This document shows positions 10,683-63,839 of a stretch of DNA of 64,000 bases, piece after piece (the stretch's first letter is position 1; each line of letters opens with the position of its first letter). The notes under the pieces are model-generated. The model was not told the DNA's origin, made no database searches, and saw only the letters and a program-made list of their open reading frames with translations. The DNA comes from Terriglobus saanensis SP1PR4. GTDB taxonomy: Bacteria; Acidobacteriota; Terriglobia; Terriglobales; Acidobacteriaceae. The translations under genes and the position numbers were made by a program. The DNA is taken from NCBI RefSeq assembly GCF_000179915.2, contig NC_014963.1, forward strand, positions 4,464,001 through 4,528,000. The letters are read 5' to 3'.

Positions 10683-10695
10683 TCTTCCATCACTT

Positions 10696-11208: not shown

Positions 11209-11333
11209 GGCATCTTCTCTGCCGAAATCTCGGTCTCCTCTTTTCTATTGTTTCCAGACATAGAAGATGTGTCCCGAAGTCCGCACCTGTGTCCATATGT
11301 TCGGAAAACTCACTTCGGAGGTACCGAATAGTT

Positions 11334-12134: not shown

Positions 12135-12144
12135 GGCTCACCTG

Positions 12145-12699
12145 CTATCCAATGGGACGAAGCACACGGCAGGGATTGCCTACTGCGAGAACGTCGTCTG
12201 GAATATCCCGCGTAACGACACTTCCCGCTCCAATCACTGCTCTTGACCCGATGGTGACTCCGGGGAGAATCAACGCACCCGAGCCCACCCAGACATCGGA
12301 ACCGATTGTGACAGGTGCGCCGTACTCTTGCTTTCGTCTCATCTCTGCATCGAGTGGGTGCAGAGGCGTCAGAATCTGTACGCCCGACCCGAACTGCGTA
12401 TAGTCGCCGATCTTCACCTTGCAGACATCCAGGACAGTGCAGTTGAAGTTGAAGAAAACGCGCTCTCCTAATTCAATGTTGGTTCCGTAGTCGCAGAAAA
12501 AGGGAGGTTGCAGCGATACTGTCTCGCCGCCCTTTCCGAAGATCTGTTTCAGGAGGTTGCGTCGAAGATCACGATCTGACTCTCGTGTGGCATTCAAGGT
12601 TTGGCAAAGATCGCGGGCGCGGTCTCTCGCCTGAAGCAGCTCAGGATCAGAGGCATCATAGAGTTCGCCTCCCAACATCTTTTCCCATTCCGTTTTCAT
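12145..12699 (-). CDS. Sugar O-acetyltransferase (maltose/NodL acetyltransferase family)
   Basis: A 184-residue hexapeptide-repeat acetyltransferase that transfers acetyl from acetyl-CoA to a sugar hydroxyl. The N-terminal EWEKMLGGELYDASDPEL segment is the typical maltose-transacetylase cap. LTPLHPLDAEMRR includes the catalytic His, and the C-terminus has VWVGSGALILPGVTIGSRAV plus the final NPCRVLRPI. Length and order match Maa/LacA/NodL proteins. It faces the AraC gene tail to tail. Confidence 0.9.
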   Translation of the reverse strand: MKTEWEKMLGGELYDASDPELLQARDRARDLCQTLNATRESDRDLRRNLLKQIFGKGGETVSLQPPFFCDYGTNIELGERVFFNFNCTVLDVCKVKIGDYTQFGSGVQILTPLHPLDAEMRRKQEYGAPVTIGSDVWVGSGALILPGVTIGSRAVIGAGSVVTRDIPDDVLAVGNPCRVLRPIG

Positions 12700-49040: not shown

Positions 49041-49865
49041 TCAGCTGAACACGTAATTGACGAAGTCCCCAGACTCCGCGAGATGTTGCAAGAGTGCGAC
49101 TTCCCAATGGTTCGGTGGGCATTGTGTTTTTCTGTCGATTGCCATTTGACGCAGCCTGCGCCGCAATTTGCGGGGACCAAGGTCTAAGCTTGCAGGGCTC
49201 TGGAACGTCTTCAGGAGTAGGGCCATGGTGGTCGAGGCTTGCTTCGTGTAGCGTCGCCCCAGATCAAGGGCTTGAAAGTGGCGTTCCAACACCGCGAAAC
49301 TCTCGAGTGTCCCAGGATTCGCTAACGAATAGGAGACCGTCAACTTGGGAAGATATGTGATATCTACCTGCAACAGTCCGTCTATGCCGCTCAGTTCGGA
49401 GAGCGCGTATATGAAAAGCCGGGAGCCTGTCTCGTGGTAACGGGCGAGTTTCTTCCCGTTGCAGGGCTTGCAAATGGGCACAAGATTTCTTGGAAAGAGA
49501 GTGAACTCGGGGAACATGCTCTTTGGTAAATAGTGGTCGTGCTCCCACTGTTCTCCGAAATTGCAATAGGGGCATGTACTGTTGCCCGTATCTTCGAAGT
49601 GATCATTCAGTGCGTCCCATAACGATCTGAATTTGCCGAGCCGGCTCGAGAAGATCGTAGCTAAGGTTTTGCGGACATCGGGGGACAAACCGATCGGCGT
49701 CAACGCGTGAAGGTCGTGCGGTATCGCGGCGGCGAAGTCATCGTACGCCGCTTCGATTTCCGCGAAAGATGCCTCAATCGGTGGTCTATGGATCGGCTTG
49801 ACGCTTCCCTTGATATCAGTCAGCGTCGGTAGATCGGTCAGCTCTACGGGGGCGACATGTCGCAT
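49041..49865 (-). CDS. ptuB: HNH endonuclease, PtuB-like partner of the ATPase
   Basis: A 274-residue protein with an HNH/treble-clef nuclease motif. CPYC (98-101) and CKPC (132-135) bind the structural zinc, and WEHDHYLPKSMFPEF between them has the His-Asp-His catalytic core; NLVPICKPCN completes it. Its start overlaps the stop of the AAA ATPase gene by one base (TAATG). An ATPase followed by a coupled HNH gene is the layout of the Septu anti-phage system, where PtuB is the nuclease effector. Assigned from motifs and order; it is not tested by search. Confidence 0.8.
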   Translation of the reverse strand: MRHVAPVELTDLPTLTDIKGSVKPIHRPPIEASFAEIEAAYDDFAAAIPHDLHALTPIGLSPDVRKTLATIFSSRLGKFRSLWDALNDHFEDTGNSTCPYCNFGEQWEHDHYLPKSMFPEFTLFPRNLVPICKPCNGKKLARYHETGSRLFIYALSELSGIDGLLQVDITYLPKLTVSYSLANPGTLESFAVLERHFQALDLGRRYTKQASTTMALLLKTFQSPASLDLGPRKLRRRLRQMAIDRKTQCPPNHWEVALLQHLAESGDFVNYVFS

Positions 49866-51358
49866 TATTCGTCAGCCTCGACCGTGAGAGATTCCAGATA
49901 GATTTGTGCTGGCAAAGGCAAACCCCGCTCGAACATCGCTTGGATCTGCCCTGCGGTCATGCCTCGGTCAACAAGTCGATCAAGCACCGAATGAAAATCC
50001 TGTTCTGGCTCAGCAAGGTCCAGGATATGGCGGGTTAGTTCCCCGAGGTCCTCACCGAACGTTTCAATATTCGGCAACCCGATTGAGGTGCGTGATCCGC
50101 GGCGTCTGAGTACCCGCACATATCTACGTGGCACTTGCTGCAGGAGAATGGGCGAATGCGTTGCGATCACCGCGAAGGACTGAAATTCGCGAAGTATCTC
50201 ATCTAGAATTGCGATCAAAGTGCTCAAGAGGCCGGGATGGAGGTGAGTCTCTGGTTCATCGAATAGCAGGATGCTTCGTTCTTCGATAAATCCGACCACG
50301 TCGGCGGCGACCGAGATGATGAATCGCTGTCCAGCACTCAGCAGCGCAAATATCTGATCGCGACTCGCCTTGTCAGCGGCAAAGGGCTCCGCGATCTTGG
50401 GACCCAACAGACGGTCGGCCAACCGCTGAAAGATATCAAGACGATCTTCCGAAATGATGGACTTCATGGCACCATCAAGCATCGTCTTCAACTCGCGGAC
50501 GTCAATGGCACCCTCCGCGTTCCTGAGACCGCAATATTTGTAATCAAACCGCATCTTCCGACCGCGAAAGGGCTTGGGCTTGGGAATTGGGAATTGATCA
50601 AAGGCGCTGTAGGAGATCGTGATGATCTTGCTGAATTCTGGGTCTCCTTCGGAGATCTTGGCCGTCCCCAGCAGTTCTTTTTCGTCATCATCCCATTTAT
50701 CTAGGCCATAAAGGCTCTGCGCGAGATGGGCGAGAAGCTGCGTCTTGCCGGTGCCGTTCCGCCCGATAAGAAGGTTGATCCGATTTGGCAATTCAACGTG
50801 GGGTGCGAAGTCTAAATGGATTTCGTGCGGCGCCGTTGAGTTGGGCAACGTCATTTCAAAATGAAAGGACGGGGGATCCAGCTCGTGAACTGGATACCCG
50901 ACGTAGTGCCCTCCACGTCTCAGACCGTCTCGTGCGCCGCTGTTTCTCAACAACGACTTCTCGAAGCCGGAGTGCGCTTCAAACTTTGCCTGTTGTTTGG
51001 GGCGCGACACGATGTCCCGAAGGGACTTCAGGTATTCCTTCCGTACCCCTACCGGCAAGTCATCGCGAAGATGGCGATAATAACGCACCGATTGCCCCAG
51101 CGAACAGAAGCGGGGGGCCAAGGTGGTGAATTCATCCTCGATTCTCGGCGTGTAAATTACATCTTCGTCCGATATCTCCAAAATTTTCACTTCGCCCAAT
51201 TCGATCTCATCGGCATCGGCATGGAGCTTTATGCTCGCTTTGAAGAGCGTGTAGTACCCATAGTCGTTCCAGTTGTCATCAAAGAGATAGACGGCTGGGT
51301 ACTTGACGTTACTAGGCTTGCGGCGCCGGGACGGACGATAGACGTAAAAGTGAAGCAA
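49865..51358 (-). CDS. ptuA: AAA (ABC-like/OLD-type) ATPase, PtuA-like
   Basis: A 497-residue ATPase. After a unique N-terminal domain of about 165 residues comes INLLIGRNGTGKTQLLAHL with the P-loop (199-206). Signature-like LLSAGQRFIISVAADVV, Walker B ILLFDEPETHLHP and switch His FAVIATHSPILLQQ follow. This is the AAA_21/AAA_15 group used by many defence ATPases. With the coupled HNH gene downstream it matches Septu PtuA: the ATPase is thought to hold the nuclease in check until infection. Retron-type partners are absent. Divergent from the ubiquitin-like operon at 51871. Confidence 0.82.
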   Translation of the reverse strand: MLHFYVYRPSRRRKPSNVKYPAVYLFDDNWNDYGYYTLFKASIKLHADADEIELGEVKILEISDEDVIYTPRIEDEFTTLAPRFCSLGQSVRYYRHLRDDLPVGVRKEYLKSLRDIVSRPKQQAKFEAHSGFEKSLLRNSGARDGLRRGGHYVGYPVHELDPPSFHFEMTLPNSTAPHEIHLDFAPHVELPNRINLLIGRNGTGKTQLLAHLAQSLYGLDKWDDDEKELLGTAKISEGDPEFSKIITISYSAFDQFPIPKPKPFRGRKMRFDYKYCGLRNAEGAIDVRELKTMLDGAMKSIISEDRLDIFQRLADRLLGPKIAEPFAADKASRDQIFALLSAGQRFIISVAADVVGFIEERSILLFDEPETHLHPGLLSTLIAILDEILREFQSFAVIATHSPILLQQVPRRYVRVLRRRGSRTSIGLPNIETFGEDLGELTRHILDLAEPEQDFHSVLDRLVDRGMTAGQIQAMFERGLPLPAQIYLESLTVEADE

Positions 51359-51776
51359 CTAGCGGGCCTCGTTTGAGTTGACCAAACATAGAACACCGAT
51401 CGGCCAGTGGTGTCAGCGTTTGGTTCTTGGATGACAACGTTTCTCAAGACGATAACATTCTCCAGATTTATCGCACTTCCGCGTTTCCTTAATCACTGCG
51501 CTCAAGCACTTCGTTCGCTTCATGAACGAGAACCTCATGGAGCTCAGGGTCGGCACGTGGATCCCGGTTGGAACTATGTGGGTGGTATGGAACGCGGCGA
51601 GCGCAATGTCGCATTAGAGAACAGCGCGAAACTATCCTGATCGAACTCTGGCTGACAAATTTCATACGCGTTCTGTCCGCAGGAATTTCCCTCAGGTATA
51701 CGCAAACCCAGCGATATCAGCCTCAGAGTCCAACCCATCGGGCTGTCCGCGGTTACTAGTTGATTACAACCGACCG

Positions 51777-51794
51777 TTTGCCGCTAACGGCAAA
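51777..51794. promoter_or_regulatory. Inverted repeat TTTGCCG-CTAA-CGGCAAA
   Basis: A perfect 7-bp dyad with a 4-bp centre, 77 bp upstream of the operon's first gene. Operator-like in size and position. Confidence 0.5.
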
Positions 51795-51805
51795 ACCATG
51801 TCGTT

Positions 51806-51822
51806 CCGTATGATGTATACGG
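51806..51822. promoter_or_regulatory. Inverted repeat CCGTAT-GATGT-ATACGG
   Basis: A perfect 6-bp dyad with a 5-bp centre, 49 bp before the first gene and 11 bp after the other dyad. The two together suggest a regulated promoter; the small HTH-like protein at 52662 is a candidate binder. Confidence 0.5.
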
Positions 51823-51870
51823 TATTCAACAGCCCTAACAAAAAGAGCTTCAGATGAGCTAGGTGAACTA

Positions 51871-52665
51871 TTGAGCATCCCTCCCCTCAAGAAAAAGACG
51901 CTCGCCGGCGAACTCTACACACGCGATGCAGGCATAGAGTCGATGCTGTTCGAACTTTACGCTCTTCCTCGCACTTCGCTAGTGGAGCGCGCACAGATCA
52001 GTCGAGCGAGCGACCCTCTCTATATTCCAAGTGAATGCATCGTCCATCTGATTCGTACTAGCCGGGACGAGGTAGACGAAGTTTGGTTTAGCGTGCTTTT
52101 CAAAATTCTCAGCAAGCGAATCCTAAATGCATTGCCACGGGCGACCACGCGCGACGGGAAAGACACTTCGCTTACGAAGGAATCCATCCGGGATGAAGCG
52201 TTCGGCCGTTTCGTAGAAATTTTATCGAGTGACCGTCAAGGCTACGACGAGCGCCTAGATTTCTTTGAGATCAAGTTCAATGGAGCCGTAGAGAAGCTTC
52301 GCCTGACCGCCCAGAAAAGGGCGTGGCTGGCAGAGAAAAGATACGCACCCCTCGAGTCCGATGAGGATGGGGCAGAGCTATCGCCGGAGGTTGAGCAGGC
52401 GGCGGGTGCCTTCGATCCCTTCGATGTATCAAATTTGCAGAGCCAGAGTTACCGGTTGCGCCTAGATGCAGCGATTAACCAGTTATCTCCTTTACAGCGC
52501 AGGATCATTCACATGTTGAGACAGGGCTTCCAAATAGACTCCAATGACGCCGACACAACGACTATCGTCAAAGCAGTTAGCCGTTCCGAAAAAACCGTTA
52601 GAACTCACCGCGATCTCGCCTTCGCCATCATTCGGGACAGCATGAAGGAAGGAGGAACTCTATGA
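51871..52665 (+). CDS. Sigma-factor-like DNA-binding protein
   Basis: A 264-residue protein starting at TTG after AGGTGA. Its C-terminal 60 residues resemble sigma-70 region 4: LDAAINQLSPLQRRIIHMLR, then TTIVKAVSRSEKTVRTHRDL as the HTH. The N-terminal part (IPSECIVHLIRTSRDEVDEV, then VWFSVLFKILSKRILNA) could be a region-2-like helical domain but lacks clear family residues. It heads the operon and its stop overlaps the next ATG (ATGA). Probably an ECF-like or phage-type sigma factor, or an activator, driving the operon. Confidence 0.7.
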   Translation: MSIPPLKKKTLAGELYTRDAGIESMLFELYALPRTSLVERAQISRASDPLYIPSECIVHLIRTSRDEVDEVWFSVLFKILSKRILNALPRATTRDGKDTSLTKESIRDEAFGRFVEILSSDRQGYDERLDFFEIKFNGAVEKLRLTAQKRAWLAEKRYAPLESDEDGAELSPEVEQAAGAFDPFDVSNLQSQSYRLRLDAAINQLSPLQRRIIHMLRQGFQIDSNDADTTTIVKAVSRSEKTVRTHRDLAFAIIRDSMKEGGTL

Positions 52666-53243
52666 GCGTCCCTGCCAAACCTACGCGCGAAGAGGTTCTA
52701 GATGCATTCTCCGTGGAGAAAAAGGCCGATCCAGAGACGCTTGAGCACTACATACGGACGTACCCGGAGTTTGCTGAAGATCTCATCGATCTGTCATGGC
52801 AATTGAACAGCGTCACGACACAAGAGGAGGAACACCTTACCTCTATGGACATGGCTAAGATTGAGACAGCGTGGAGCATATACAGAAGTTCCAGCGCTTC
52901 TCCCAAGTCGGATCCCTTCGCTGCGTTGTCTGCCACGGATTTACGTTCCGCTGCATTGAACCTTGGTGTCCCACGCCAGGTCCTATCCGCTTTCCGAGAG
53001 CATCGCGTGTTGCTTTCAACTGTACCTAAACGTTTCCTGTTACGCCTGGCAACAACCCTGAACACGAGTGTTGAAACAATCTTGTCGCTAGGTTCGGCGT
53101 CTTCATTGAATTTAGAGCCGAGTCGAGCTTATAAGGCCGATTCCAAACCGAAGGTCGCCGAGCAGGTCAGTTTTGTCCGTCTGTTGACCGATGCGGGTGT
53201 GACGGATGAAGACATCCGTGATTTGACGGTTGACGGAGAGTAA
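52662..53243 (+). CDS. Small HTH-like protein, possible substrate of the downstream ImmA domain
   Basis: A 193-residue protein. Residues 20-50 (DPETLEHYIRTYPEFAEDLI) are helical. The segment about 86-125 (DLRSAALNLGVPRQVLSAFR, then TVPKRFLLRLATTLNTSVET) resembles a helix-turn-helix module that I recall preceding ImmA/IrrE genes in mobile elements. A linker and short helix end the protein. It is coupled to the sigma-like gene by ATGA, and its stop is flush with the next start (TAAATG). By analogy with ImmR/DdrO it may be a repressor or antagonist cleaved by the ImmA-type protease next door. Unproven. Confidence 0.6.
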   Translation: MSVPAKPTREEVLDAFSVEKKADPETLEHYIRTYPEFAEDLIDLSWQLNSVTTQEEEHLTSMDMAKIETAWSIYRSSSASPKSDPFAALSATDLRSAALNLGVPRQVLSAFREHRVLLSTVPKRFLLRLATTLNTSVETILSLGSASSLNLEPSRAYKADSKPKVAEQVSFVRLLTDAGVTDEDIRDLTVDGE

Positions 53244-56200
53244 ATGGACTCCGTTGAGCTTGCTCGCCAGATCGCCGCTCGACTCCACGCTTGCGCGGTG
53301 GCCGATGGGAGCAATCCTTGTGATCCGTACGCCTTTGCTCTCGCTGAGGCAAAGCGCCAAGACGTCGATGTCGAATCAACGGCAAAAGGTGCCGCGATCC
53401 TAGATGGGGGACGTGCTGCGATCCTACGGAAGGATCGGCTCATTCTCCATGAAAATTGCGAGTCGTTTTTTGAACGAGCTTTCCTCACTGCTCATGAACT
53501 AGGGCACGTTGTGCTGGAGGATGATCTTGCCGACGAATCGGTCCTTGAGATTGATCCTAGCCGACCATCTGAGCCTTCGCCCCTTGGATTCGATAGGGTC
53601 GTTGACTACGGTAGAAGGCAGAGGCGTGAAATCCAAATGGATCTCTTCGCGAGGGAGTTCCTCTTGCCCAGATCATGGGTTCGAACGCTCCACTTGGACG
53701 ATGGACTCACCGCGTCAGAGATATCAGATAAGGTGGGCGCACCCTTCGAGGTAGTGGCTCAGCAGCTACTTGACGCGCTCCTCTTACCAGCCGTCAACCT
53801 CCGCCCATTGGAGTGGACGCAAGAAGCACCGCTCAACGAGCTTCAGGAATTAGCGGCCAAGCATCGTGGTGAAGCCTATCTGCTTGAGGCCGGGCCAGGA
53901 ACTGGGAAGACGCGAACTCTCGTGGCGAGGGTCGAAGGGCTGTTGGCGGACGGCGTTGACCCACGGCGCATACTTGTACTCACATTCTCAAATAAAGCCG
54001 CCAGCGAGATGGGCGAACGCATTGCGCGGAAGCACAGAGAGGCAGCCGCGGCGATGTGGGTGGGGACCTTCCACGCGTTTGGCCTCGATTTGGTCCGTCG
54101 CTTTTTTACGGAGTTGGGACTTCCACGAGATCCGCGGATGATGGACAGAACCGAAGCTGTTGAGTTGCTGGAAGATCGATTTCCTTCGTTCAATCTCCGT
54201 CATTACCGAAACATCTACGACCCGACCCAGATCATCACCGAGATACTGACTGCTATATCTCGTGCGAAGGATGAAGTCGTTGACGCAGAGGAATATGCTC
54301 GCTTGGCAGGGTCAATGGGATCAAGTGAGGCCGCAGAGCGCGCCGCAGAGGTCGCACAAGTATATGGCGCTTATGAGCGCCTGAAAAGAGATGCAAACTG
54401 CGTTGACTTTGGTGACTTAGTCTTGCTTCCAGTACGGTTACTGGAGACAAGTCCTGACATTCGGTCACACATCCAGTCCCTGTACGACCACGTCATCGTT
54501 GACGAATATCAAGACGTGAACCGAAGCAGCACCCGCTTGCTAGCGGCCCTTAAACCGGATGGTCATAACCTCTGGGTTGTCGGAGATGCGAAGCAGTCCA
54601 TCTATAGATTCCGCGGGGCATCTCCATTCAGCATGATGCGCTTCGGGACTCAAGACTTTCCTGGTGCCAAACGCGAGCGCTTAGGCCAAAACTATCGATC
54701 CTCCGCAGAGATCGTCAACGCTTTTTCGACATTTGCAGCCACCATGCGTCTGGGTGCCGGGAGTAGGGCACTCCATGCCGACCGTGGGCCAAACGGCATT
54801 CACCCCAAATTGCTTTGCGTACGGAGGGCAGAGCAGCAGGCGGTGGCCCTTGCAGATTCGATTCAAGTGCTAAGAAGCGAAGGCTTGACGTACAGAGAAC
54901 AGGCGGTCTTGTGCACGGGAAATGAAAAGCTGTCGACGCTGGCGAGAGAGCTCGAGGTTTTAGGCATCCCTGTTCTCTTCTTAGGCAGCTTGTTCGAACG
55001 TCCCGAGGTCAAAGATCTCCTTTCATTACTTTCGGTGTTGATCGACCGTCGCGCGATGGGCTTGGTTCGGCTCGGCTGCTGGCCAGAATTCAAAATGCAG
55101 TTTGCGGATGTTGCAGCGACCTTGGAGTTCCTTCGCCTAACAGAGGTATCGCCGGGGGCTTGGTTACAGAGCGTCGACGGAATTCCGAAAATAACGGATC
55201 AGGGGGCAAGAGCCCTGACATCTTTGGGAGTCGCTCTCCATGGCTTTGATCAGAGTTCATCACCGTGGACAGTCCTTGTAACTCTGCTTCTTGATCACAC
55301 GCGCATGGCTGCTAGACTTGGCAGCTCAGTCAACATCGCCGATCGCTCTCGTGCCATTGCCATCTGGCAGTTCTTGAACTTCCTACGTGTCCAGCCATCC
55401 GGACAAGGCCTGCCAATCACGCGGCTACTAGATCGTGTACGTCGGCTAGTTCGCCTTGGAGACGACCGAGACCTTCGCCAGCTCCCGAACGCGGCTCAAG
55501 GTCTTGACGCGGTGCGTCTGCTGACCATACATGGTGCCAAGGGACTTGAGTTTTCCGCTACACATATACCTGGCGTGAACGCAGACACGATTCCTCGCGT
55601 TTCGTCAGCCCCAATCTGCCCGCCCCCAGAAGGGATGATTCAGGGCGCAACGGCATCTTCATTGGAAACGTACCGCGAAGGACAGGTGGAAGAGCAGGAA
55701 TGTCTTTTCTATGTGGCGTTGTCACGAGCGAAAGGCCATTTGCTTTTTTACGCACCAATGGAGAAGAGCAACGGCCATAATCGGCCCCTCTCTTCATTCT
55801 TGGATCGCATCGGCACTACGCTAATAAGGACAGTAGTTGTTCCGCAACGTTCGATTCCCGAGGCAGCGGAGGAGGCTGCACTTCAAATAGTATTCGACGG
55901 TCCTATGCGATTCGGGGCTCCGCAGATTGCACTTTATGAGAGCTGCCCGAGGCGCTTCTTCTACACCCACATTCTGCAAGTCGGCGGAAGACGAACCTCC
56001 ACTGCCTTTATGAAAATGCACGACGCGGTGCGGATGATACTGGCCACGCTGATCATTGATGGGAAGCCTGCCGGCCCGGAGGACTTGGAGGATCGCATCG
56101 AGGCGGCTCTCAAGACTGTGGAACTTGCTGATCACGGCCATCGAAATGAATTCTCTGCGCTCGCCCTTACGATGCTAAGGTACTTCGTCAGTACACAGGA

Positions 56201-56624
56201 AGGCTGTGCGAACGAGGTTCCCGTTGCTATCAATCTCAAATTCGGAGACGAAGAGATCGTGGTGCGAGCTGATGACATCCTCATCAGACCTGATCAAAGT
56301 AGGGTTGTACGTCGGATTCGGACTGGGCATCTAAGATCCTCTGAAACGAAGGATGTTGGCGCTGCCGCATTCGTACTTGCAGTTCAGCAGGCGTTTCCAG
56401 ACTCGGTAGCGGAAATCGTCCATCTATCAGACGGCACCTCTCAACGGCTTTTGCTATCCGTGAAGGAGCTACAGAATCGGCGAACGAAGCTCGAGGGCTT
56501 CTTGGGTGATATTCGAGCGGGGCATTTCCCAGCGATCACTTCTCCTTTCACCTGTCCCGGCTGTCCAGCCTTCTTTATCTGTGGACCCACGCCCGAGGGG
56601 CTCCTGCAGAAAAAATTCTCCTGA
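53244..56624 (+). CDS. ImmA/IrrE protease + UvrD helicase + Fe-S nuclease-like fusion
   Basis: A 1126-residue fusion. Residues 1-150: ImmA/IrrE zinc protease (AFLTAHELGHVVLEDD, HELGH at 84-88; RREIQMDLFAREFLLPRSW). About 195-800: SF1A UvrD-type helicase with EAGPGTGKTRTL (217), VLTFSNKAASEM, VIVDEYQDVNRS (420), VVGDAKQSIYRFRGA, LGQNYRSS, LTIHGAKGLEFS (760) and FYVALSRAKGHLL. About 890-1126: RecB/AddB-like nuclease fold with ESCPRRFFYTHIL (Cys901) and CPGCPAFFIC (Cys1104, 1107, 1113), the four-Cys Fe-S pattern. The catalytic Asp1010 (VVRADDIL) is present, but the DxK strand reads VVRRIRTG, so nuclease activity is doubtful. Likely senses or remodels DNA ends and signals by proteolysis. Confidence 0.88.
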   Translation: MDSVELARQIAARLHACAVADGSNPCDPYAFALAEAKRQDVDVESTAKGAAILDGGRAAILRKDRLILHENCESFFERAFLTAHELGHVVLEDDLADESVLEIDPSRPSEPSPLGFDRVVDYGRRQRREIQMDLFAREFLLPRSWVRTLHLDDGLTASEISDKVGAPFEVVAQQLLDALLLPAVNLRPLEWTQEAPLNELQELAAKHRGEAYLLEAGPGTGKTRTLVARVEGLLADGVDPRRILVLTFSNKAASEMGERIARKHREAAAAMWVGTFHAFGLDLVRRFFTELGLPRDPRMMDRTEAVELLEDRFPSFNLRHYRNIYDPTQIITEILTAISRAKDEVVDAEEYARLAGSMGSSEAAERAAEVAQVYGAYERLKRDANCVDFGDLVLLPVRLLETSPDIRSHIQSLYDHVIVDEYQDVNRSSTRLLAALKPDGHNLWVVGDAKQSIYRFRGASPFSMMRFGTQDFPGAKRERLGQNYRSSAEIVNAFSTFAATMRLGAGSRALHADRGPNGIHPKLLCVRRAEQQAVALADSIQVLRSEGLTYREQAVLCTGNEKLSTLARELEVLGIPVLFLGSLFERPEVKDLLSLLSVLIDRRAMGLVRLGCWPEFKMQFADVAATLEFLRLTEVSPGAWLQSVDGIPKITDQGARALTSLGVALHGFDQSSSPWTVLVTLLLDHTRMAARLGSSVNIADRSRAIAIWQFLNFLRVQPSGQGLPITRLLDRVRRLVRLGDDRDLRQLPNAAQGLDAVRLLTIHGAKGLEFSATHIPGVNADTIPRVSSAPICPPPEGMIQGATASSLETYREGQVEEQECLFYVALSRAKGHLLFYAPMEKSNGHNRPLSSFLDRIGTTLIRTVVVPQRSIPEAAEEAALQIVFDGPMRFGAPQIALYESCPRRFFYTHILQVGGRRTSTAFMKMHDAVRMILATLIIDGKPAGPEDLEDRIEAALKTVELADHGHRNEFSALALTMLRYFVSTQEGCANEVPVAINLKFGDEEIVVRADDILIRPDQSRVVRRIRTGHLRSSETKDVGAAAFVLAVQQAFPDSVAEIVHLSDGTSQRLLLSVKELQNRRTKLEGFLGDIRAGHFPAITSPFTCPGCPAFFICGPTPEGLLQKKFS

Positions 56625-56704
56625 GTTTACCGGTCGACCCATGTGCCAGCGATTACTCCTATAGAGCCGAGGCAAAGCCCCGCGCTACGAAAGGATGTGA
56701 TCCT

Positions 56705-57460
56705 ATGAATACCGAAACCTTCCTCGAGTTTGACGATCTGGGCGTCGCGGTGCGAGAAGGACGACCTCTCTATCCTGCCCGCAATTACCGTTTCCTCTTG
56801 GCGCAGGGAAACCTGAACTTCGCCACTCTCACGATCGGCGATCCCATCCCACTTGGCAGCCAGATACTGGAGGCAGCCGGTCTCCTTCCGAGCGATGGCT
56901 ATAGTCTCTTCGGCATTCTACCGTCGGGAGATTTCGAGGACATTCGTCTCGACGAGCTTTTCGACCTGCGGACGAGGGGCGCTGAGCGATTTGTCGCTTT
57001 TCTCACGGACCGCGACTTCAAGCTAACTGTCGATGACAAGCAACTCGCTTGGGGCAAACCGATCATCAGCGGCGCAGAGATCCACAAACTGGCCATGCCC
57101 CGGGAGGGCGAATGCGTCTTCCTCCAAGTACGTGGCGGGGAAGATCGAGTCGTTGAGGTCGGCGACTTTGTCGACCTTGCGGAACCCGGAATCGAACACT
57201 TCATTACAGCACCCAAGAGGCCCACGAATTACGAGATCATCGTCAATTCGCGGCCACGCATCGTGAATGAGCGTCTCGTCACGTTCGAAGAGGTTGTTCA
57301 GCTCGCCTTCCCGGGAGTTCACGAGCCCAATGTGGTGTTTTCAATGACCTACCGACACGCGGCCTCTGCCCCACATGCAGGGGAACTCGGTATCGGGGGT
57401 AAGGTTGACGTCAAGCGGAAGGGGACAATCTTCAATGTCACACGCACTGTTCAGTCGTAA
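56705..57460 (+). CDS. Triple ubiquitin-like (multi-beta-grasp) protein
   Basis: A 251-residue protein built from three tandem beta-grasp-like units: about 27-97 (NYRFLLAQGNLNFATLTIGD...), 103-169 (RDFKLTVDDKQLAWGKPIIS...) and 175-249 (NYEIIVNSRPRIVNERLVTF...). The second resembles the multiubiquitin family, the third single-domain bacterial ubiquitin-like proteins. The C-terminus IFNVTRTVQS has no Gly-Gly; I recall the same FNVTxTxxS ending in bacterial ubiquitin-like proteins of E1/DUF6527 operons. It should be activated by the E1-like enzyme encoded next, whose start overlaps this gene by 26 bp. AAAGGATG precedes the ATG. Confidence 0.82.
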   Translation: MNTETFLEFDDLGVAVREGRPLYPARNYRFLLAQGNLNFATLTIGDPIPLGSQILEAAGLLPSDGYSLFGILPSGDFEDIRLDELFDLRTRGAERFVAFLTDRDFKLTVDDKQLAWGKPIISGAEIHKLAMPREGECVFLQVRGGEDRVVEVGDFVDLAEPGIEHFITAPKRPTNYEIIVNSRPRIVNERLVTFEEVVQLAFPGVHEPNVVFSMTYRHAASAPHAGELGIGGKVDVKRKGTIFNVTRTVQS

Positions 57461-58613
57461 CGCCGACCTCAAACGTCTCCGCGACGAGGGTTATCTTGTG
57501 CACGTGCAGGGTGGCTTCCTCGTCATGGAGGAAGTCCCCTACGTCAACGCGAAGGGAGAAGTCCTCACGGGCCGCCTCATCTCCAGTCTCACGTTGGCTG
57601 GAGATGAGACCCGGCAGCCGGACAACCACGTAATCCATTTCGACGGCGACTTTCCTTGCCGCGCAGATGGCGTTCCTATCCAAGCCATTGCGCACCAGAC
57701 AAACGTTCAGATCAATTTAGGTAATGGCCTGGCTGCCAGGCAGGCATTCTCAAGCAAACCTGATGGAGGATATACAGACTATTACCAGAAGTTCACGAGC
57801 TATGCCGGCATCTTGTCCGGTCCAGCGGCAGTGGTAAAACCTGGAATGAGTGCCAGGGTAATGCGGGCGCCAGATGAAGAGGAAGACAGCGTTTTCAACT
57901 ATATGGAAACGGCATCCGGTCGGGTCGGCATAGGAGCCCTTACCGAACTGCTCAAGGCGGATCGCATCGCCATAATTGGAGTCGGTGGCACGGGCTCTTA
58001 TGTGCTGGACCTCGTCGCCAAGACCCCGGTGCAGGAGATCAGACTCTTTGATTCAGATCTCTTTCTGCAACACAACGCGTTCCGTGCGCCCGGTGCTCCC
58101 GGTCTGGAAGAACTGCGCGAGGCACCTAAGAAGGCTGATTACCTCAAGGGAATTTATTCACGGATGCGTAAAGGCATCACCGCGAATGCGGTGGCGCTCC
58201 ACGGAGACAATCTGCATCTCCTCGAGGGTGTGACCTTTGCCTTTCTTTGCCTGGACGCCGGCGAAGAAAAACGTGCCATCGTTCAAAAGCTAGAGTCGAT
58301 GGGTGCTTCGTTCGTGGACGTGGGCATGGGGCTCGAGTTGACGGATGGTTCACTTGGCGGAATTCTCCGAGTCACAGCCAGCACGCCGCAGAAACGCGAC
58401 CATGTCCATAGCGGCCGCATTTCGTTTGCTGGAGGCGGTCCCGCAGACCTTTATGCCTCAAATATTCAGGTCGCCGACCTTAACGCACTAAACGCGGTGC
58501 TGGCCGTTGTGAAGTGGAAGAAGATTCGAGGCTTCTACCGGGATCTAGAACGGGAGCATCACTGCACCTACACCACGGATGGCAACATGCTCGTAAATGG
58601 AGATTGCGGATGA
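57435..58613 (+). CDS. E1-like ThiF-family adenylyltransferase with DUF6791-type N-terminal domain
   Basis: A 392-residue enzyme. Residues 170-330 form the ThiF/MoeB/E1 Rossmann fold: RIAIIGVGGTGSYVLDLVA (ATP loop 182-188), EIRLFDSDLFLQHNAFRAPG with the conserved Asp, Asn214 and Arg217, and SFVDVGMGL with GGILRVT. It should adenylate the C-terminus of the ubiquitin-like protein encoded upstream. Residues 1-165 are a separate domain I associate with DUF6791. Only four Cys exist (75, 272, 377, 391) and none sits where E1 catalytic Cys usually does, so thioester transfer is questionable. No separate E2 gene is in the operon. Confidence 0.85.
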   Translation: MSHALFSRNADLKRLRDEGYLVHVQGGFLVMEEVPYVNAKGEVLTGRLISSLTLAGDETRQPDNHVIHFDGDFPCRADGVPIQAIAHQTNVQINLGNGLAARQAFSSKPDGGYTDYYQKFTSYAGILSGPAAVVKPGMSARVMRAPDEEEDSVFNYMETASGRVGIGALTELLKADRIAIIGVGGTGSYVLDLVAKTPVQEIRLFDSDLFLQHNAFRAPGAPGLEELREAPKKADYLKGIYSRMRKGITANAVALHGDNLHLLEGVTFAFLCLDAGEEKRAIVQKLESMGASFVDVGMGLELTDGSLGGILRVTASTPQKRDHVHSGRISFAGGGPADLYASNIQVADLNALNAVLAVVKWKKIRGFYRDLEREHHCTYTTDGNMLVNGDCG

Positions 58614-59062
58614 TTTCCCACAAATATCTGAAGCACCACTTCGTGGAACATATCCCTGAACAACTTGAACTTGGACTGCTCTATATCTCCATACCCTATG
58701 CTACTGCGGCCCATAGTTGCTGCTGCGGATGTGGCGAAGAAGTCGTTACCCCATTTACCCCCACGGATTGGAGGATGACCTTCGACGGAGATACGGTGTC
58801 TCTTAAGCCGTCGATCGGCAACTGGAGTCTTCCGTGTCGATCGCATTACGTCATCAGCCGAGGAAGTGTAATTGAAGCTTTGCCTTGGACAAAAGATGAG
58901 ATTCGGGGGGAGCATCACCGGGACAAGACTGCCAAGAAGGAGTTCTACGAACATAGGGTATACGAGCCGGTGCCGCCTCATGTTCAGAGCCCCCGCCTAT
59001 CGGAAGCGGTAAAACCAAGTCTTTGGGTGCAAGCGTGGCGTTGGATCAGAGAGAGAGGTTGA
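58610..59062 (+). CDS. DUF6527-like Cys-rich protein of the ubiquitin-like locus
   Basis: A 150-residue protein. Conserved-looking blocks are HSCCCGCGEEVVTPFTPTDW (His35, Cys37, 38, 39, 41), VSLKPSIGNWSLPCRSHYVI (Cys76, Ser78, His79), and an N-terminal EHIPEQLELGLLYISIPYA. I recall this arrangement from DUF6527, which accompanies bacterial poly-ubiquitin and ThiF genes. The Cys cluster suggests metal binding, and CRSHY could be catalytic, for example a protease or isopeptidase that trims or removes the modifier. The start overlaps the E1 stop (ATGA). Function unproven. Confidence 0.78.
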   Translation: MISHKYLKHHFVEHIPEQLELGLLYISIPYATAAHSCCCGCGEEVVTPFTPTDWRMTFDGDTVSLKPSIGNWSLPCRSHYVISRGSVIEALPWTKDEIRGEHHRDKTAKKEFYEHRVYEPVPPHVQSPRLSEAVKPSLWVQAWRWIRERG

Positions 59063-59127
59063 GCGTGCCTACTTCGAAATCTCAACTCTACCGCGGTGCA
59101 ACCCTGGACTCCGATTACACTTCTCCG

Positions 59128-60384
59128 ATGCCTACTTTTCGGTTCATCCATGCGGCGGATATACATCTAGATAGCCCTCTACGAGGTTTATCGCGCTATG
59201 AGGGACTTCCTATAGAAGAGATTCGCGAAGCAAGCAGGAGCGCTTTCGACAGACTTATTCGGTTCGCTTGCTCCGAAAAGGTCGATTTCGTCGTCATTGC
59301 AGGCGATCTTTACGATAGCGACTGGAAGGACATGGGAACGGGCCTGTATTTCGCGAAGGCTATGGGCAGACTCGGTTCGGCCGGGATCCCAGTTTTTCTA
59401 ATACGCGGCAATCATGACGCTGTTTCGGTGTTGACACGCTCGCTGCCCCTGCCCGAAAACGTCCATGTATTTAGTGATCGAGTTGCTGAAACAAAGCAAC
59501 TAGAAGCGCTTCGAGTCGCTTTGCATGGGCGAAGCTTTGGCTCTCGAAGAGAGGTCGATGACATCACTCCCAGCTACCCAGAGCCGGTCTCGGGTTTCTT
59601 CAACATCGGGATTCTCCACACATCACTCAACGGATATGCGGAACACGAGCCCTATGCGCCGTGCAACCTAGCAGCATTGGAAGCGAAAGGTTACGACTAC
59701 TGGGCTCTAGGGCATGTCCATGAGCACGCGATTTTGAATACTTCCCCATATGTTGTATTCAGTGGCGTTCTGCAAGGCCGACATATCCGTGAGCAAGGAC
59801 CAAAGGGAGCCGTCTTGGTGGAAGTCGAAGACGGTGCCGTGAAGCGTGCAGAACATATCCCGCTAGATGTGTTTAGGTGGGCTATTGTCGCCGTCGATTG
59901 CACCGAAATCGATCAGCTTGAAGACCTACAAGGCCTCATCCGCAGAGAAATTCGTTCGCACTTAGAGATGTTAGGGACGAACCCACCCGTTGTGATCCAG
60001 CTCGTTCTCAAGGGTTCAACACCATTGCATGCGCGAATTATGGAGAGTTCTGGCCAGATTAGAGATGATGCACGGGCAATCGCCGTGGAGCTTTCGACCG
60101 ACCTTTGGCTGGAAAAACTGAAGATCCAGGTGGAAGCGCCAAAAGAGTCAGCGCCCAATCCTCAAGTTGGAGGACTGGATGAACTCCTCGCTTCGGCAGC
60201 ATCAGACGATCTCTTGTCCAAGAAACTTCAAAATGAGCTCACGCCGTTCCTCTTAGCCTATCCAAAGCCACCGAGTGAAACTGAGGAAACGGTAGTGCTC
60301 TTGGCGCGTGCCGGCAGTTGGAATGAATTAATTTCCTTAGCTTCTAAAACCCTTCAAGCGCGGCTTGTTTCGGCGGAGGATTAG
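59128..60384 (+). CDS. SbcD/Mre11-like metallophosphoesterase (YhaO type)
   Basis: A 418-residue DNA repair exonuclease-like protein. The N-terminal calcineurin-like phosphoesterase has all metal motifs: FIHAADIHLD (DxH), VIAGDLYDSDWKD (GD), LIRGNHDAV (GNHD), ILHTSLNG and ALGHVHEHAIL (GHxH). The C-terminal 150 residues are the capping and partner-binding part. YhaO of Bacillus and its relatives act with the SMC-like YhaN encoded next, 2 bp downstream. The ATG at 59128 is chosen because it starts MPTFRFIHAADIHLD; GTG starts closer to the previous stop add an unusual leader. Confidence 0.92.
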   Translation: MPTFRFIHAADIHLDSPLRGLSRYEGLPIEEIREASRSAFDRLIRFACSEKVDFVVIAGDLYDSDWKDMGTGLYFAKAMGRLGSAGIPVFLIRGNHDAVSVLTRSLPLPENVHVFSDRVAETKQLEALRVALHGRSFGSRREVDDITPSYPEPVSGFFNIGILHTSLNGYAEHEPYAPCNLAALEAKGYDYWALGHVHEHAILNTSPYVVFSGVLQGRHIREQGPKGAVLVEVEDGAVKRAEHIPLDVFRWAIVAVDCTEIDQLEDLQGLIRREIRSHLEMLGTNPPVVIQLVLKGSTPLHARIMESSGQIRDDARAIAVELSTDLWLEKLKIQVEAPKESAPNPQVGGLDELLASAASDDLLSKKLQNELTPFLLAYPKPPSETEETVVLLARAGSWNELISLASKTLQARLVSAED

Positions 60385-60386
60385 CG

Positions 60387-63300
60387 ATGCGTTTCAATAA
60401 ACTAAAGCTGTCCAAGTACGGAAGTTTTGATGGTTGCGAGATGACATTTCCTCAGGCAACCAGAGACTTTCATTTCATCGCGGGTCGAAACGAAGCCGGA
60501 AAGTCTACAGCAATGGCTGGCGTATCGGATTTACTTTTCGGGTTTTCGCATGCGAAATCACAAGATTACAAATTCGACGCAAATTTATTGCGGGTCGGGG
60601 CCTCTCTGAGTCATAACGGAGAAACGCTAGACTGCCAACGCAAGCGGGGTAAAGTTGGGACTTTGCTTGACTCCTCTAGCCAATTCGTCAGCGAAGACCG
60701 CATCATTCGGATGCTACAAGGAAGCACACGCGACTCTTTCCGCCTCGGATGGAGTCTAAGCCACCAACAGTTGCGTGATGGGGGGCGTTCAATTGCCGAA
60801 TCACGTGATGATGTCGGCCAAGCAATTTTCGCGGCTGGCTCTGGGCTCGTGGGCATAGCTGAGACAGTCGACGCCCTGTGTTCGGAGGCTGAACAAATCT
60901 GGAAGAAAGGTGCGACAGCGCGCAGATGGAACATCGCCCATCGGGAACTAGTGAGCGCGATCCAGTCGGTGAAGGAAAACAGCATCCGCCCGAAAGACTG
61001 GCAGGATGCGCTAGAAAAGAAAGAGCTTCTAGAACTACGTCGGGATGAGTTGACGACAAAACGAGCCCATTTACGCATCGAGGAAAAGAAGCACCAACGG
61101 CGCTGGCGATTGGCTTCCAATGTTCGGCGCTTCGAAGAGCTAAAGACGTACCTCTTCAATAGCACGACGAAAGTTCTCTCTCTTTCTGATGAACGAGAGT
61201 TTTATGCAGCCATGGAAGCCCTTGCGACCGCACACAGAGCCTGGGACGCTGCGCAAGCACGTCTGCATGATCTGGACGCGCAATTTAACGCTCTGTCGAG
61301 AGATGCCGAGATCGTCGAACTGTCCAACGACATTTCGGAATTGCTGGAGAAGAGGGGAGCAGTGAAGCAGGCGTCTGACGATCTGCCGCGGAGGCGTGCG
61401 AATCTCGCGACGAAGCAATTACACATATCCAACATCTTGGCCGATGTGAATCTGGTTTCAGATGCCAAAATCGGCGAACTCAGGAAGCATCTACCGTCGC
61501 GTCAAACTGTGTCGGCCATCCGCGACAAAGCCAGAAAGCTCGATAGGCTGAGGGAAGCTAAACGCTCCGCAAACGATCGTGTAGTGGAACTGAAGGAAGA
61601 AGCTGAATCCATTCTGAGCCAGGGTGCCGAAACAGATGAGCCGGTGTCATTGCCGTCTTTGAGATCGGCTGTGGGCATTGCCAGAAAACAAGGAAAGATT
61701 GATCAAGAACTTCGCGCTGCCGAGGTCTCCAAGAAAGATGCCGAGAAACGTCTTGCAGCCCTGATCACGAAACTAGCTCCCTGGAGCGGTGGGATTGAGG
61801 ATCTATTGATCGTCGATGTCATAGCTGACGGGGTGCTGGAATCGCGGCGACTGCAACTCGAAGACGCACAGCGCAATGTTGCTGAGGAGAAGTCGGCCGC
61901 CCGTAAATTAGCAGATGATCGGGAGCAAAAACGCATATCCCGTGCGTCACTTGTCGCTTCGGGGCGCGCAATAACTGCCGAGGAAGTACGTGTAGCCCGG
62001 AAGATGCGGACTGACTCCTGGCAACCACTTCGCAATCATCTCTTTGCTCAAGAACTTCTCGCAGACCCCAAATCTTCCGTCTCGCAGTACGAAGACTCGA
62101 TCTTGTCGGCGGATGGGCTTTCCGACGACCGCTTCTTGTCAGCAAAGTCTTCTGCTGCTCTTGAAGTGCTGGACGCAGAAATTGCTCTACTGGATCTGAA
62201 GATCAAGCAGACTGACGAGCGCTTTGAAGAGGCTGAGAGGCTTGTTGCTGAGTTGCTTGTCGCGTGGGAAAAGGAACTCAGCATGAGAACCTTGCCTTCG
62301 TTGGACCCACTGAACCTACGAGACTGGATCACAAAACGACAGGCGGCAGTTGACCAGCACGCGACCTTGCTAACCGATTCGGAAGATGTCACACGTCTCA
62401 AAGAGGAAAGGGCAAACGCGCTGACTTCATTGCGGAAAGTCTCACAGGAGATGATCCCACTTGAAATACAAATGTTTGCGGAGGCATTAGAGATTGCAGA
62501 AGCTCGCTTGGAGGAGTTGGAAGGACAATCCCGCCGGTTCGAGCAGCGTGAGAAGGAGAAACTGGATTTAGCCGTTGCGACGAAACTTGCGGTACAAAAG
62601 GCCGACCTGGCGGACAAGGCCTTCAATGAAAGTCTCGCGGCGTTTACCGCGTCAACTTCTGCTGCGGCCTTACCCGACGATATCGACGAAGCGACGTTAG
62701 ACTTGTATGAGGAATTGCGAAGCGAGTTGGATGCCGCTTTAGATCTCGAACATCGGATCGAGTCAATGGACGCGGATTGCACCCAATTCACTCTAAAAGT
62801 TTCCGAACTTGGCGCTCGGCTTGCCGTTACGAACAGCGATCCCATGGATTGCCTGCTTATATTCGATCGCCGTTTGACTGCCGCCAAAATCGTTGAGACT
62901 AGGGCCGAGCATTTTAGCGAGCAGATCGCTCAGCTTAAGGATGAAATTGAAGTTGAGGCTGGGCACAAAGAGGCGGCCGTCGCGAGTCTGCTACCAATTA
63001 AAAAGCTCTTGCTTGAACAGGACATAGAGAGTCTAAAAAACCTTGTTGAAGAGTCGACTTCCATCCGAGGGCTCCAAGCTGAGAAAGAAGAACTGGCAGC
63101 GCGAATTGTCCTGAATGGAGATGGGCTCCCTCTTGAAACACTTCTCGCCGAAGCTGAGGGGGCAGCGTCGGACAAAGACGCCGCAGTCGAAGATGGGATC
63201 GCGCAGCAGATTGCTGATCTCGACACACAACTAACGGAAGCTGCCACAGACCTAGGGATTGCCAAAGAATCCTTTCGAGCGATCGATAAGGGCGACGAAG

Positions 63301-63839
63301 CGGTAAAGGCGGCGGCTGACGTCGAAATCGCACGCGCAAATCTAGCTCTCGAATCAGAGGAGTTTGTCTTCAAGAAGACGCAAGTAATTCTGCTGGAGTG
63401 GTTGCTTGAGAAACAACGTGAAGCAGACAAGAGTCCTTTGTTGTCGAGAGCAAGCGATATATTCAAGCACCTGACATTAAGCCGTTACGACAAGCTTGAA
63501 GTGGATTCTGATGGCTCGACTCCAAGACTGTTAGGTGTCCTCGCGGACGGTGCGTCAACCGTCCCACTTGATGCTATGAGCGACGGTACGAAGGATCAGC
63601 TTTACCTGTCGCTTCGGATTGCCGTTATCGAGCAATCCGTGCGAAGCGGTGTAACGCTGCCGTTTCTCGCCGATGATCTGTTCATCAACTATGACGACGA
63701 TCGAGCCCGCGCCGGTCTCGAAGTATTGGGTGATTTATCGAAAGTCACTCAAGTTCTTTTCTTCACGCATCATGACCATCTGCTTGAAATCGCCAAAGAC
63801 GTTTTTGGCGCTGCCGACATGCACCATTGCCAGATCTAA
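60387..63839 (+). CDS. Rad50/SbcC-like SMC ATPase (YhaN type)
   Basis: A 1150-residue SMC-like ATPase. The N-terminal P-loop FIAGRNEAGKSTAM is at 33-40. Between about 180 and 1030 are long helical, heptad-rich coiled-coil regions. The C-terminal lobe has the ABC signature region MSDGTKDQLYLSLRIAVIE, Walker B LPFLADDLFINYDDDRA and VLFFTHHDHLL. No CxxC zinc hook is obvious in the middle, as in YhaN rather than Rad50. It is expected to tether DNA ends with the YhaO nuclease, making an SbcCD-like complex. It closes the eight-gene operon. Confidence 0.92.
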   Translation: MRFNKLKLSKYGSFDGCEMTFPQATRDFHFIAGRNEAGKSTAMAGVSDLLFGFSHAKSQDYKFDANLLRVGASLSHNGETLDCQRKRGKVGTLLDSSSQFVSEDRIIRMLQGSTRDSFRLGWSLSHQQLRDGGRSIAESRDDVGQAIFAAGSGLVGIAETVDALCSEAEQIWKKGATARRWNIAHRELVSAIQSVKENSIRPKDWQDALEKKELLELRRDELTTKRAHLRIEEKKHQRRWRLASNVRRFEELKTYLFNSTTKVLSLSDEREFYAAMEALATAHRAWDAAQARLHDLDAQFNALSRDAEIVELSNDISELLEKRGAVKQASDDLPRRRANLATKQLHISNILADVNLVSDAKIGELRKHLPSRQTVSAIRDKARKLDRLREAKRSANDRVVELKEEAESILSQGAETDEPVSLPSLRSAVGIARKQGKIDQELRAAEVSKKDAEKRLAALITKLAPWSGGIEDLLIVDVIADGVLESRRLQLEDAQRNVAEEKSAARKLADDREQKRISRASLVASGRAITAEEVRVARKMRTDSWQPLRNHLFAQELLADPKSSVSQYEDSILSADGLSDDRFLSAKSSAALEVLDAEIALLDLKIKQTDERFEEAERLVAELLVAWEKELSMRTLPSLDPLNLRDWITKRQAAVDQHATLLTDSEDVTRLKEERANALTSLRKVSQEMIPLEIQMFAEALEIAEARLEELEGQSRRFEQREKEKLDLAVATKLAVQKADLADKAFNESLAAFTASTSAAALPDDIDEATLDLYEELRSELDAALDLEHRIESMDADCTQFTLKVSELGARLAVTNSDPMDCLLIFDRRLTAAKIVETRAEHFSEQIAQLKDEIEVEAGHKEAAVASLLPIKKLLLEQDIESLKNLVEESTSIRGLQAEKEELAARIVLNGDGLPLETLLAEAEGAASDKDAAVEDGIAQQIADLDTQLTEAATDLGIAKESFRAIDKGDEAVKAAADVEIARANLALESEEFVFKKTQVILLEWLLEKQREADKSPLLSRASDIFKHLTLSRYDKLEVDSDGSTPRLLGVLADGASTVPLDAMSDGTKDQLYLSLRIAVIEQSVRSGVTLPFLADDLFINYDDDRARAGLEVLGDLSKVTQVLFFTHHDHLLEIAKDVFGAADMHHCQI

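Follow-up and report, generated by a model that had tools for sequence, protein, structure and literature searches.

A sigma-like, HTH and protease-helicase triad ahead of ubiquitin-like cassettes in Terriglobus saanensis and other bacteria: a candidate controller with two putative promoters

Related systems and the Terriglobus operon

Ubiquitin-like conjugation has only recently been established in bacteria. The 64,000-nucleotide window analyzed here (the whole stretch of Terriglobus saanensis SP1PR4 contig NC_014963.1 from 4,464,001 to 4,528,000) contains, at 51871 to 63839, an operon in which a sigma-like gene, a helix-turn-helix (HTH)-like gene and a gene for an ImmA/IrrE protease fused to a UvrD helicase, called the triad below, stand ahead of genes for a triple ubiquitin-like protein (polyUbl), an E1-like enzyme and a DUF6527 protein. 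The parts are known; the linkage of these six genes, seen from the fusion, is firm, and the controller with its two putative promoters is, judged by its sequence, new. It is about an even call whether the triad, with a regulon of two sites and plugged in before three kinds of ubiquitin-like cassette, forms an undescribed class of controller.

The class 6e polyUbl operons of Iyer et al. 2006 (PMC1779556), in which a triple-Ub protein of Mesorhizobium is cited, resemble this operon in their tandem ubiquitin-like domains, in an E1 with a JAB or other N-terminal domain and in a small metal-binding protein. However, a term search of the main text of that article found no occurrence of helicase, UvrD, Rad50 or YhaN, and the portions consulted describe no controller or promoter. 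Likeness to the Bub systems is seen in polyUbl, which matches multi-ubiquitin proteins in the PDB (4e-27) and, weakly, BubA (0.0074), and in the JAB-E1 of one related kind of cassette (type ii, below), which matches BubCD. The E1 in the window differs in having DUF6791 in place of JAB, and its controller is a helicase fusion with a sigma-like gene. Bub operons are accompanied by CapW or CapH/CapP in 219 of 544 cases and by CapK/CapS in 59 of 544, and the article giving these counts describes phage protection by Bub as not demonstrated (PMC13373217).

In the CapH/CapP pair, according to the same article, a protease activated by single-stranded DNA (ssDNA) cleaves its HTH repressor, and controllers of the XRE+ImmA and GHKL+winged-HTH (wHTH) types are likewise described as ssDNA-activated (PMC13373217). 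The window operon also has an HTH-like gene beside an ImmA/IrrE-type protease with an HExxH motif. Its protease, however, is not stand-alone but is joined to UvrD and a PD(D/E)XK-like, Fe-S (iron-sulphur)-type domain, and there are an additional sigma-like gene and conserved bipartite sites. The UvrD helicase core is shared with GajB of Gabija, although no GajA/OLD-type gene is found among the operon ORFs (open reading frames) by Pfam or PADLOC, and protease and Fe-S-type domains are added here. The metallophosphoesterase and AAA_27 ATPase genes at the end of the operon resemble the YhaO/YhaN (Mre11/Rad50-like) pair, which here is a variable add-on to a ubiquitin-like operon. Titles and abstract openings, with parts of PMC13373217, PMC1779556 and PMC10952713, contain no UvrD-ImmA fusion with ubiquitin-like genes, though Chambers 2024, Gong 2025 and Ye 2026 may mention one. 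A literature search on DUF6527 returned no papers.

All eight genes lie on the + strand, and the eight ORFs and the overlapping or flush junctions described in the initial annotation were all verified on the sequence. The sigma-like gene (51871..52665; 264 amino acids, TTG start) meets the HTH-like gene (52662..53243; 193 amino acids), whose product is the presumed substrate of the ImmA domain, in an ATGA at 52662. A TAAATG at 53241-53246 joins the latter to the fusion gene (53244..56624; 1126 amino acids). After a gap of 80 bp (56625-56704), the polyUbl gene (56705..57460; 251 amino acids) overlaps the E1-like gene (57435..58613) by 26 bp (57435-57460), and an ATGA at 58610 leads into the DUF6527 gene (58610..59062), which encodes a CxCGC...CxSH signature resembling a metal site. 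The accessory genes for a YhaO-like metallophosphoesterase (59128..60384) and a YhaN-like AAA_27/SMC-like ATPase (60387..63839) are separated by 2 bp, before 60387. The yhaO frame is open from 59023; its start is likely the ATG at 59128, since the homologue in locus L092 reads alike from there, and this start leaves a second gap of about 65 bp, before yhaO. A transcription stop at about 56.65 kb had been named in the initial annotation as a sign that the unit is coincidental, and a search of the + strand around that position found no terminator-like site.

Pfam agrees with the naming of the triple ubiquitin-like protein, the E1-like enzyme, the DUF6527 protein and YhaO/YhaN, assigning three Multi_ubiq domains to polyUbl, DUF6791 and a ThiF adenylation domain to the E1, and DUF6527, Metallophos and AAA_27 to the proteins that follow. 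To the fusion it assigns Peptidase_M78, UvrD and PDDEXK_1. In PADLOC, the fusion matches mainly GajB-type models (among the best 25 of 55 matches), the E1 mainly E1-E2-type models, and YhaO a single weak effector model; polyUbl, DUF6527, YhaN and the sigma-like and HTH proteins have no match.

In the fusion, the ImmA/IrrE protease domain is matched by PF06114 at 3e-13, and 13 aligned fusions all retain the HExxH residues H84, E85 and H88, the helicase motifs, and four cysteines of Fe-S type (C901, C1104, C1107 and C1113). The initial reading of an ImmA-UvrD-FeS fusion thus stands for the protease, the helicase and the cysteines, while the Fe-S part proves to be PD(D/E)XK-like and has lost its catalytic acid. 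With catalytic positions placed by the AddB/Cas4 pattern, the expected acid/Lys stretch reads RRIxTGH in close members, the acid is replaced in all 13, and the lysine is lost in 10 and kept in three (L067, L068, L069). An active nuclease was considered and is unlikely, because the acid is replaced in every member; we read the C-terminal part as a probable DNA-binding domain of Fe-S type that would have no nuclease activity.

Linkage of the triad and the ubiquitin-like cassettes

The fusion alignment was scanned against one genome per species, and counts refer to the best 80 loci listed. The fusion proper is present in 45 of these (L085-L129), and 41 remain after removal of four (L108, L119, L120, L129) whose contigs stop short. 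L111 duplicates the contig of L067, enters the 41 a single time and is excluded from the site statistics; L113 is cut after the E2-like gene, and L109 has weak polyUbl and E1 matches only. A ubiquitin-like cassette follows 3' of the fusion on the same strand in 34 of the 41 loci, with the first match within about 310 bp (tblastn coordinates), and in seven the ORFs behind the fusion were inspected and include no such cassette. Three kinds of cassette are found among the 34. Type i, that of the window, consists of polyUbl, a DUF6791-E1 and DUF6527 (12 loci). Type ii has polyUbl, a JAB-E1 and mostly a DUF6527-like gene (11 loci, including L093 and L103, which are placed here because the alignment shows JAB-type E1s). 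Type iii (11 loci) has a ubiquitin-like (Ubl-like) protein, a DUF7665 protein, a distant JAB and an E1-like protein. Of the 41 loci, 30 have a detected sigma-like gene and 37 a detected HTH gene; two of the misses are contigs that start inside the fusion.

Spacing is conserved as well. Of 20 type-i loci, 19 have a fusion-polyUbl gap of 80-98 bp and one a gap of 63 bp; the polyUbl/E1 overlap measures 26 bp at 17 of them and 53 bp at the other three. The 53-bp values arise where the script took an upstream ATG, and two of these three genes are annotated with 26 bp; the polyUbl ORF of L088 reads 137 amino acids only in this survey. Other phyla have the same gene order, with this overlap and gap, so the six-gene arrangement exceeds chance.

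Plasmids give the same picture. Matching plasmid records number 93 for the fusion and 113 for the E1. When the 40 matches listed for each are compared, 31 plasmids are common to both lists, and on all of these except one (about 2 kb) the fusion and the E1 lie less than 1 kb apart. Eight of nine annotated records share a single order of the six genes (Mesorhizobium, Cereibacter, Leptolyngbya, two of Acinetobacter, Agrobacterium, R. etli and R. leguminosarum). In the ninth, from Robbsia, the cassette is divergent from the triad and still adjacent. The R. leguminosarum record has a broken helicase gene within the kept order, and in Leptolyngbya (L078, 15085-21396) two further genes follow the six-gene operon, one hypothetical and one a large member of the caspase family. 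Dozens of bacterial species carry a mobile set in which the fusion, usually with a sigma-like gene, precedes ubiquitin-like genes.

From the cassette, the association looks different. DUF6791-type E1s were found in 8 of 398 sampled Proteobacterial genomes, one of which was the survey centre, chosen as a positive; the triad accompanies two of the seven others (L165, L166) and is lacking in five. In the phylum of the window, 8 of 396 genomes including the window have such an E1, and none of the other seven has a fusion match at E<=1e-60. In its own order, where a Multi_ubiq search was positive in 22 of 298 genomes, there are four further type-i cassettes: L055 has all eight genes, and L056-L058 lack the triad. 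The link from cassette to triad is looser than that from fusion to cassette. The initial annotation had held that its regulator-helicase and ubiquitin-like halves would be a coincidence if only rarely adjacent elsewhere; seen from the fusion they do keep company, whereas seen from the cassette they mostly do not.

Eight triad-free cassettes were examined for other controllers. An XRE-type and an ImmA/IrrE protein lie alongside L058, L168 and L170 (with matches below the cut-off in L168), and a GHKL ATPase and wHTH pair of CapK/CapS-like make-up lies directly 5' of the polyUbl cassette in L167 (5167-7711; its STAS part is our own reading of the sequence). A sigma-like and an ImmA/IrrE protein lie alongside L056, where, at 10494-12535, a sigma-like gene (27%), a 147-amino-acid ORF and a stand-alone ImmA/IrrE gene are divergent from the polyUbl cassette, possibly as an unfused form of the triad. 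No recognizable controller was seen at L057, L169 and L171.

The initial annotation also asked whether all eight genes keep their order together. Six do; YhaO/YhaN adjoin 4 of the 41 loci, and an obligatory eight-gene unit is rejected on that count. By its genes, the locus is three modules, namely the regulator-helicase triad, polyUbl-E1-DUF6527, and YhaO/YhaN as an accessory.

Bipartite sites and readings of the controller

Two copies of a bipartite site, TTACCGG-N16-CGATT, occur on the + strand of the window operon. P1 (52447..52478) lies inside the sigma-like coding sequence, about 215 bp 5' of the HTH gene, and P2 (56625..56656) lies between the fusion and the polyUbl gene. The general P2 pattern is TT[A/T]CCGG-N16-CGATT, and all 12 training loci have a start-to-start spacing of 23, which is that of extracytoplasmic function (ECF) promoters. 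With a matrix built from these 12 loci and a threshold set at 1% of shuffles, P2 is found in 22 of 22 type-i loci, of which 10 are outside the training set and most of those are close kin of training rows. A more independent test is provided by type ii, in which 8 of 11 loci pass. None of eight cassettes without the triad has P2 above threshold. A conserved promoter-like site 5' of the sigma-like gene was also sought and is rejected, as 2 of 32 regions exceeded the threshold.

Most type-i and type-ii operons carry both copies. In the 5.1-Mb genome of the window, the exact pattern occurs in two places only, 52449 and 56627 (window positions), with one match for a reversed control. In 19 operons, all 29 sites scoring >18 are P1 (14) or P2 (15), and L099 and L103 have neither above that score; 64 kb of non-operon DNA from the same genome has one site above threshold and none >20.

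Codon choice at P1 is constrained. The test used 22 sigma-like genes of <70% identity from type-i and type-ii loci and cut-off contigs, chosen after P1 occurrence had been inspected; L099 was added by hand, and L106, L109, L079, type iii and cassette-less loci were excluded. The excluded cassette-less loci do not show P1, and L106 has it; in type iii, L079 and L109 the peptide itself is missing. Relative to expectation from the codon usage of the fusion (for all genes but that of L084), the third base of the Tyr/Phe/His codon is C in 22 of 22 genes (12.3 expected), and 21 of 22 encode Arg by CGG or CGA (8.6 expected). NCG is used for Ala/Ser/Thr by 21 of 21 genes, against 6.9 expected, and ATT for Ile by 19 of 21, against 5.6; among all Ile codons of these genes, ATT makes up 123 of 329. 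The CGATT is kept even where Ala becomes Ser (L083, L166) or Thr (L078), and L165 has AGATT.

Downstream of P2, a tentative leader (56655..56707, + strand) may form a hairpin reaching the ribosome-binding site, as predicted by single-sequence folding. Of 15 leaders folded singly, 14 are more stable than their shuffles (z -1.0 to -5.6) and one is not (+0.5), and an alignment of leaders has no consensus base pair.

The assignment of the sigma-like protein in the window is weak. Neither it nor the HTH-like protein has a Pfam match at E<=0.05, and NCBIfam sigma-factor matches to the former are weak (2e-5) and far below cut-off. A family member about 30% identical to it (L070) exceeds the Pfam cut-off for Sigma70_r4_2 (8e-10). 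One annotator, for an A. seifertii plasmid, labels the first gene sigma, and other records call it a response regulator or transcriptional regulator. For the HTH protein, there is an HTH_3 match in the L069 homologue only, below cut-off (9e-4).

The simplest reading is that P1 and P2 are putative promoters of a dedicated sigma factor; conservation of the sites is observed, and recognition by the sigma-like protein is predicted. We lean towards a model in which a damage-sensing protease-helicase frees this sigma factor and the ubiquitin cassette then fires, the whole being a mobile, stress-inducible operon that carries its own switch. Damaged or foreign DNA would be engaged by the UvrD motor together with the Fe-S-type domain, and this engagement may, as in CapP, activate the ImmA/IrrE domain. 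The activated domain would cleave the adjacent HTH protein, an anti-sigma factor or repressor, and its loss would free the sigma-like protein to read P1, giving more HTH protein and fusion, and P2, giving the cassette. The E1-like enzyme would then adenylate polyUbl for attachment to proteins, DUF6527 probably acting as an accessory. The initial annotation had proposed a damage-responsive ImmA switch, and this is plausible by analogy to CapH/CapP; the occurrence of the same cassette beside XRE+ImmA or GHKL+wHTH pairs elsewhere is counted in its favor.

Several results weigh against this model, among them the cassette-less fusions and the triad-free cassettes counted above. At 3 of 11 type-ii loci and at 10 of 13 type-iii loci no P2 reaches the threshold, while 2 of 10 cassette-less loci do have one above it, and P1 is missing in type iii as well as in L079 and L109. 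One shuffle scored 25.1, equal to true sites, so single matches are not proof, and the single-position P values for P1 codon choice (3e-7 to 3e-11) assume independence and are inflated by kinship. Region 2 was not recognized in the sigma-like protein, no E2-like protein was recognized among the three genes of the window cassette or in type i, and the HTH protein could itself bind P1 and P2.

It is from this last point that the main rival proceeds. In this rival, P1 and P2 would be operators of a CapH-like HTH repressor, with the sigma-like protein as no more than a DNA-binding partner; ImmA cleavage upon damage would then lift repression, and there would be no sigma switch. CapH/CapP is such a combination of HTH repressor and ssDNA-activated protease (PMC13373217), TTACCGG and reversed AATCGG are vaguely alike, and the labels of response or transcriptional regulator for the first gene would fit. 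However, the site is a poor palindrome. Its spacing of 23, constant in the training sites and that of ECF promoters, also argues against operators, and one site within a coding region and another just 5' of a leader suit promoters at least as well. Operators are a possibility that we find doubtful.

The fusion could instead be an effector helicase acting on phage DNA, with the cassette modifying it or a YhaO/YhaN complex, in keeping with the second half of the initial hypothesis. Its UvrD part resembles GajB models, and DNA-end enzymes recur near the operon, with YhaO/YhaN at 4 of 41 loci and an AddB/AddA-like pair 3' of it at L076, L082 and L118. Yet the nuclease-like domain has lost its catalytic acid in 13 of 13 members, the window operon has no GajA-like partner, and no YhaO/YhaN pair is seen at 37 of 41 loci in the sequence examined, which makes an effector role unlikely. 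Least probable is that independent defence genes have simply accumulated together on mobile elements. A Septu/PDC-M01-like pair and conjugation genes do lie beside the operon, and the cassette and the fusion each also occur alone, but the recurrence of order, overlaps, gap and P2 across phyla, the linkage at 34 of 41 loci and the Robbsia arrangement, divergent yet adjacent, already make coincidence unlikely for the six genes.

If the sigma-switch model is correct, bacterial ubiquitin-like tagging would include a sigma-factor-driven DNA-damage response, and one of its promoters would be hidden inside the coding sequence of the sigma gene itself. A DNA motor fused to a protease, together with a predicted promoter, would give the polyUbl/Bub class a trigger that can be tested directly, either DNA ends or ssDNA, along with a reporter. 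That the same fusion precedes three cassettes suggests that any of them can serve as the response to a single signal, and the recurring DNA-end enzymes hint at possible tagging targets.

Cassette proteins, add-on genes and mobility

The polyUbl C-terminus reads TxxS in 13 of 16 aligned rows and has no terminal Gly. In the window E1, ThiF exceeds the Pfam cut-off. Of 18 aligned E1s, three are JAB-type; the 15 of DUF6791 type have an invariant Gly-rich loop and Asp/Asn/Arg positions, no invariant Cys, and invariant His85 and Ser126 in DUF6791. Their profile matches JAB-type E1s at 6e-12. Citrobacter BubCD is matched by the window E1 by profile only (1.2e-4) and by the type-ii JAB-E1 of L092 at 7e-33. 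A structure model of the window E1 has a pLDDT (predicted local distance difference test) of 56, and its N-terminal domain is DUF6791, not JAB, which could correspond to domain X of Iyer et al. or to a protease. Bub systems are said to use oxyester intermediates and, in one type, a Ser-His protease, which would fit the invariant His and Ser and the lack of an invariant Cys. DUF6527 was considered as an E2, and its model (pLDDT 80) has no Foldseek match in the PDB at E<=0.001.

Type iii has almost no annotated family, and its labels come partly from motif reading. Its Ubl-like protein has an invariant Gly at or near the C-terminus, and its DUF7665 protein is read as a probable E2-like protein. 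Pfam finds DUF7665 strongly in two of two proteins and Prok-JAB below cut-off in four of four (best 1.9e-5), and finds nothing for the one Ubl-like and three E1-like proteins scanned. In profile comparisons, the E1-like family is linked to type-ii E1s at 3.5e-5, and no match was obtained between the Ubl-like family and polyUbl. Members searched from the cassettes of L065, L067, L068, L100, L101 and L123 have scant coverage in Pfam, NCBIfam and the PDB. In L126 (13659-13916), the E2-like gene appears to be interrupted by a stretch reading FPYTTLFRS, which we take to be a sequencing-adapter artefact.

The four loci of the 41 that YhaO/YhaN adjoin are L092, L100, L114 and L126, of types ii and iii, with the pair once upstream; the window operon and its near-copy L055 are additional to these, and a lone weak YhaO-like match in L109 was not counted. 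A background count over 27 operon-bearing genomes, which represent 27 of the 34 linked loci and include every one of the four positives, gave 10 strong YhaN genes. Four of these are operon-adjacent, where about 0.04 would be expected within 10 kb from genome sizes. The adjacency is far above chance. In trees, the window pair groups with two Sphingomonas operon copies (100/100 for YhaN, 87/84 for YhaO) and the Mesorhizobium operon pair with a chromosomal Mesorhizobium pair, three YhaN branches being long; as these group apart, there were at least two recruitments. Elsewhere 3' of the operon are other genes or nothing. YhaO/YhaN and the AddB/AddA-like pair are proposed to be optional DNA-end-processing add-ons.

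Signs of mobility surround the operon. Positions 51744..62303 are 94.5% identical (blastn) to L055, from another genus of the same family. The left edge of this block is sharp, 127 bp 5' of the sigma-like gene, and the likeness ends where the L055 yhaN is cut (639 amino acids), 75 bp before the contig end. To the right of the window in the same genome (L071, 3977-13635) are genes for a TrwC relaxase, a TrwB-type coupling protein and a T2SSE-type ATPase, by which the operon seems to lie inside an integrated conjugative element. Among the 93 fusion plasmids, 72 are typed as mobilizable or conjugative. On the - strand of the window, at 49041-51358, is a Septu-like pair of an AAA ATPase and an HNH protein, matching PDC-M01A/B at 5.7e-129 and 5.8e-45 and also PtuA/PtuB.

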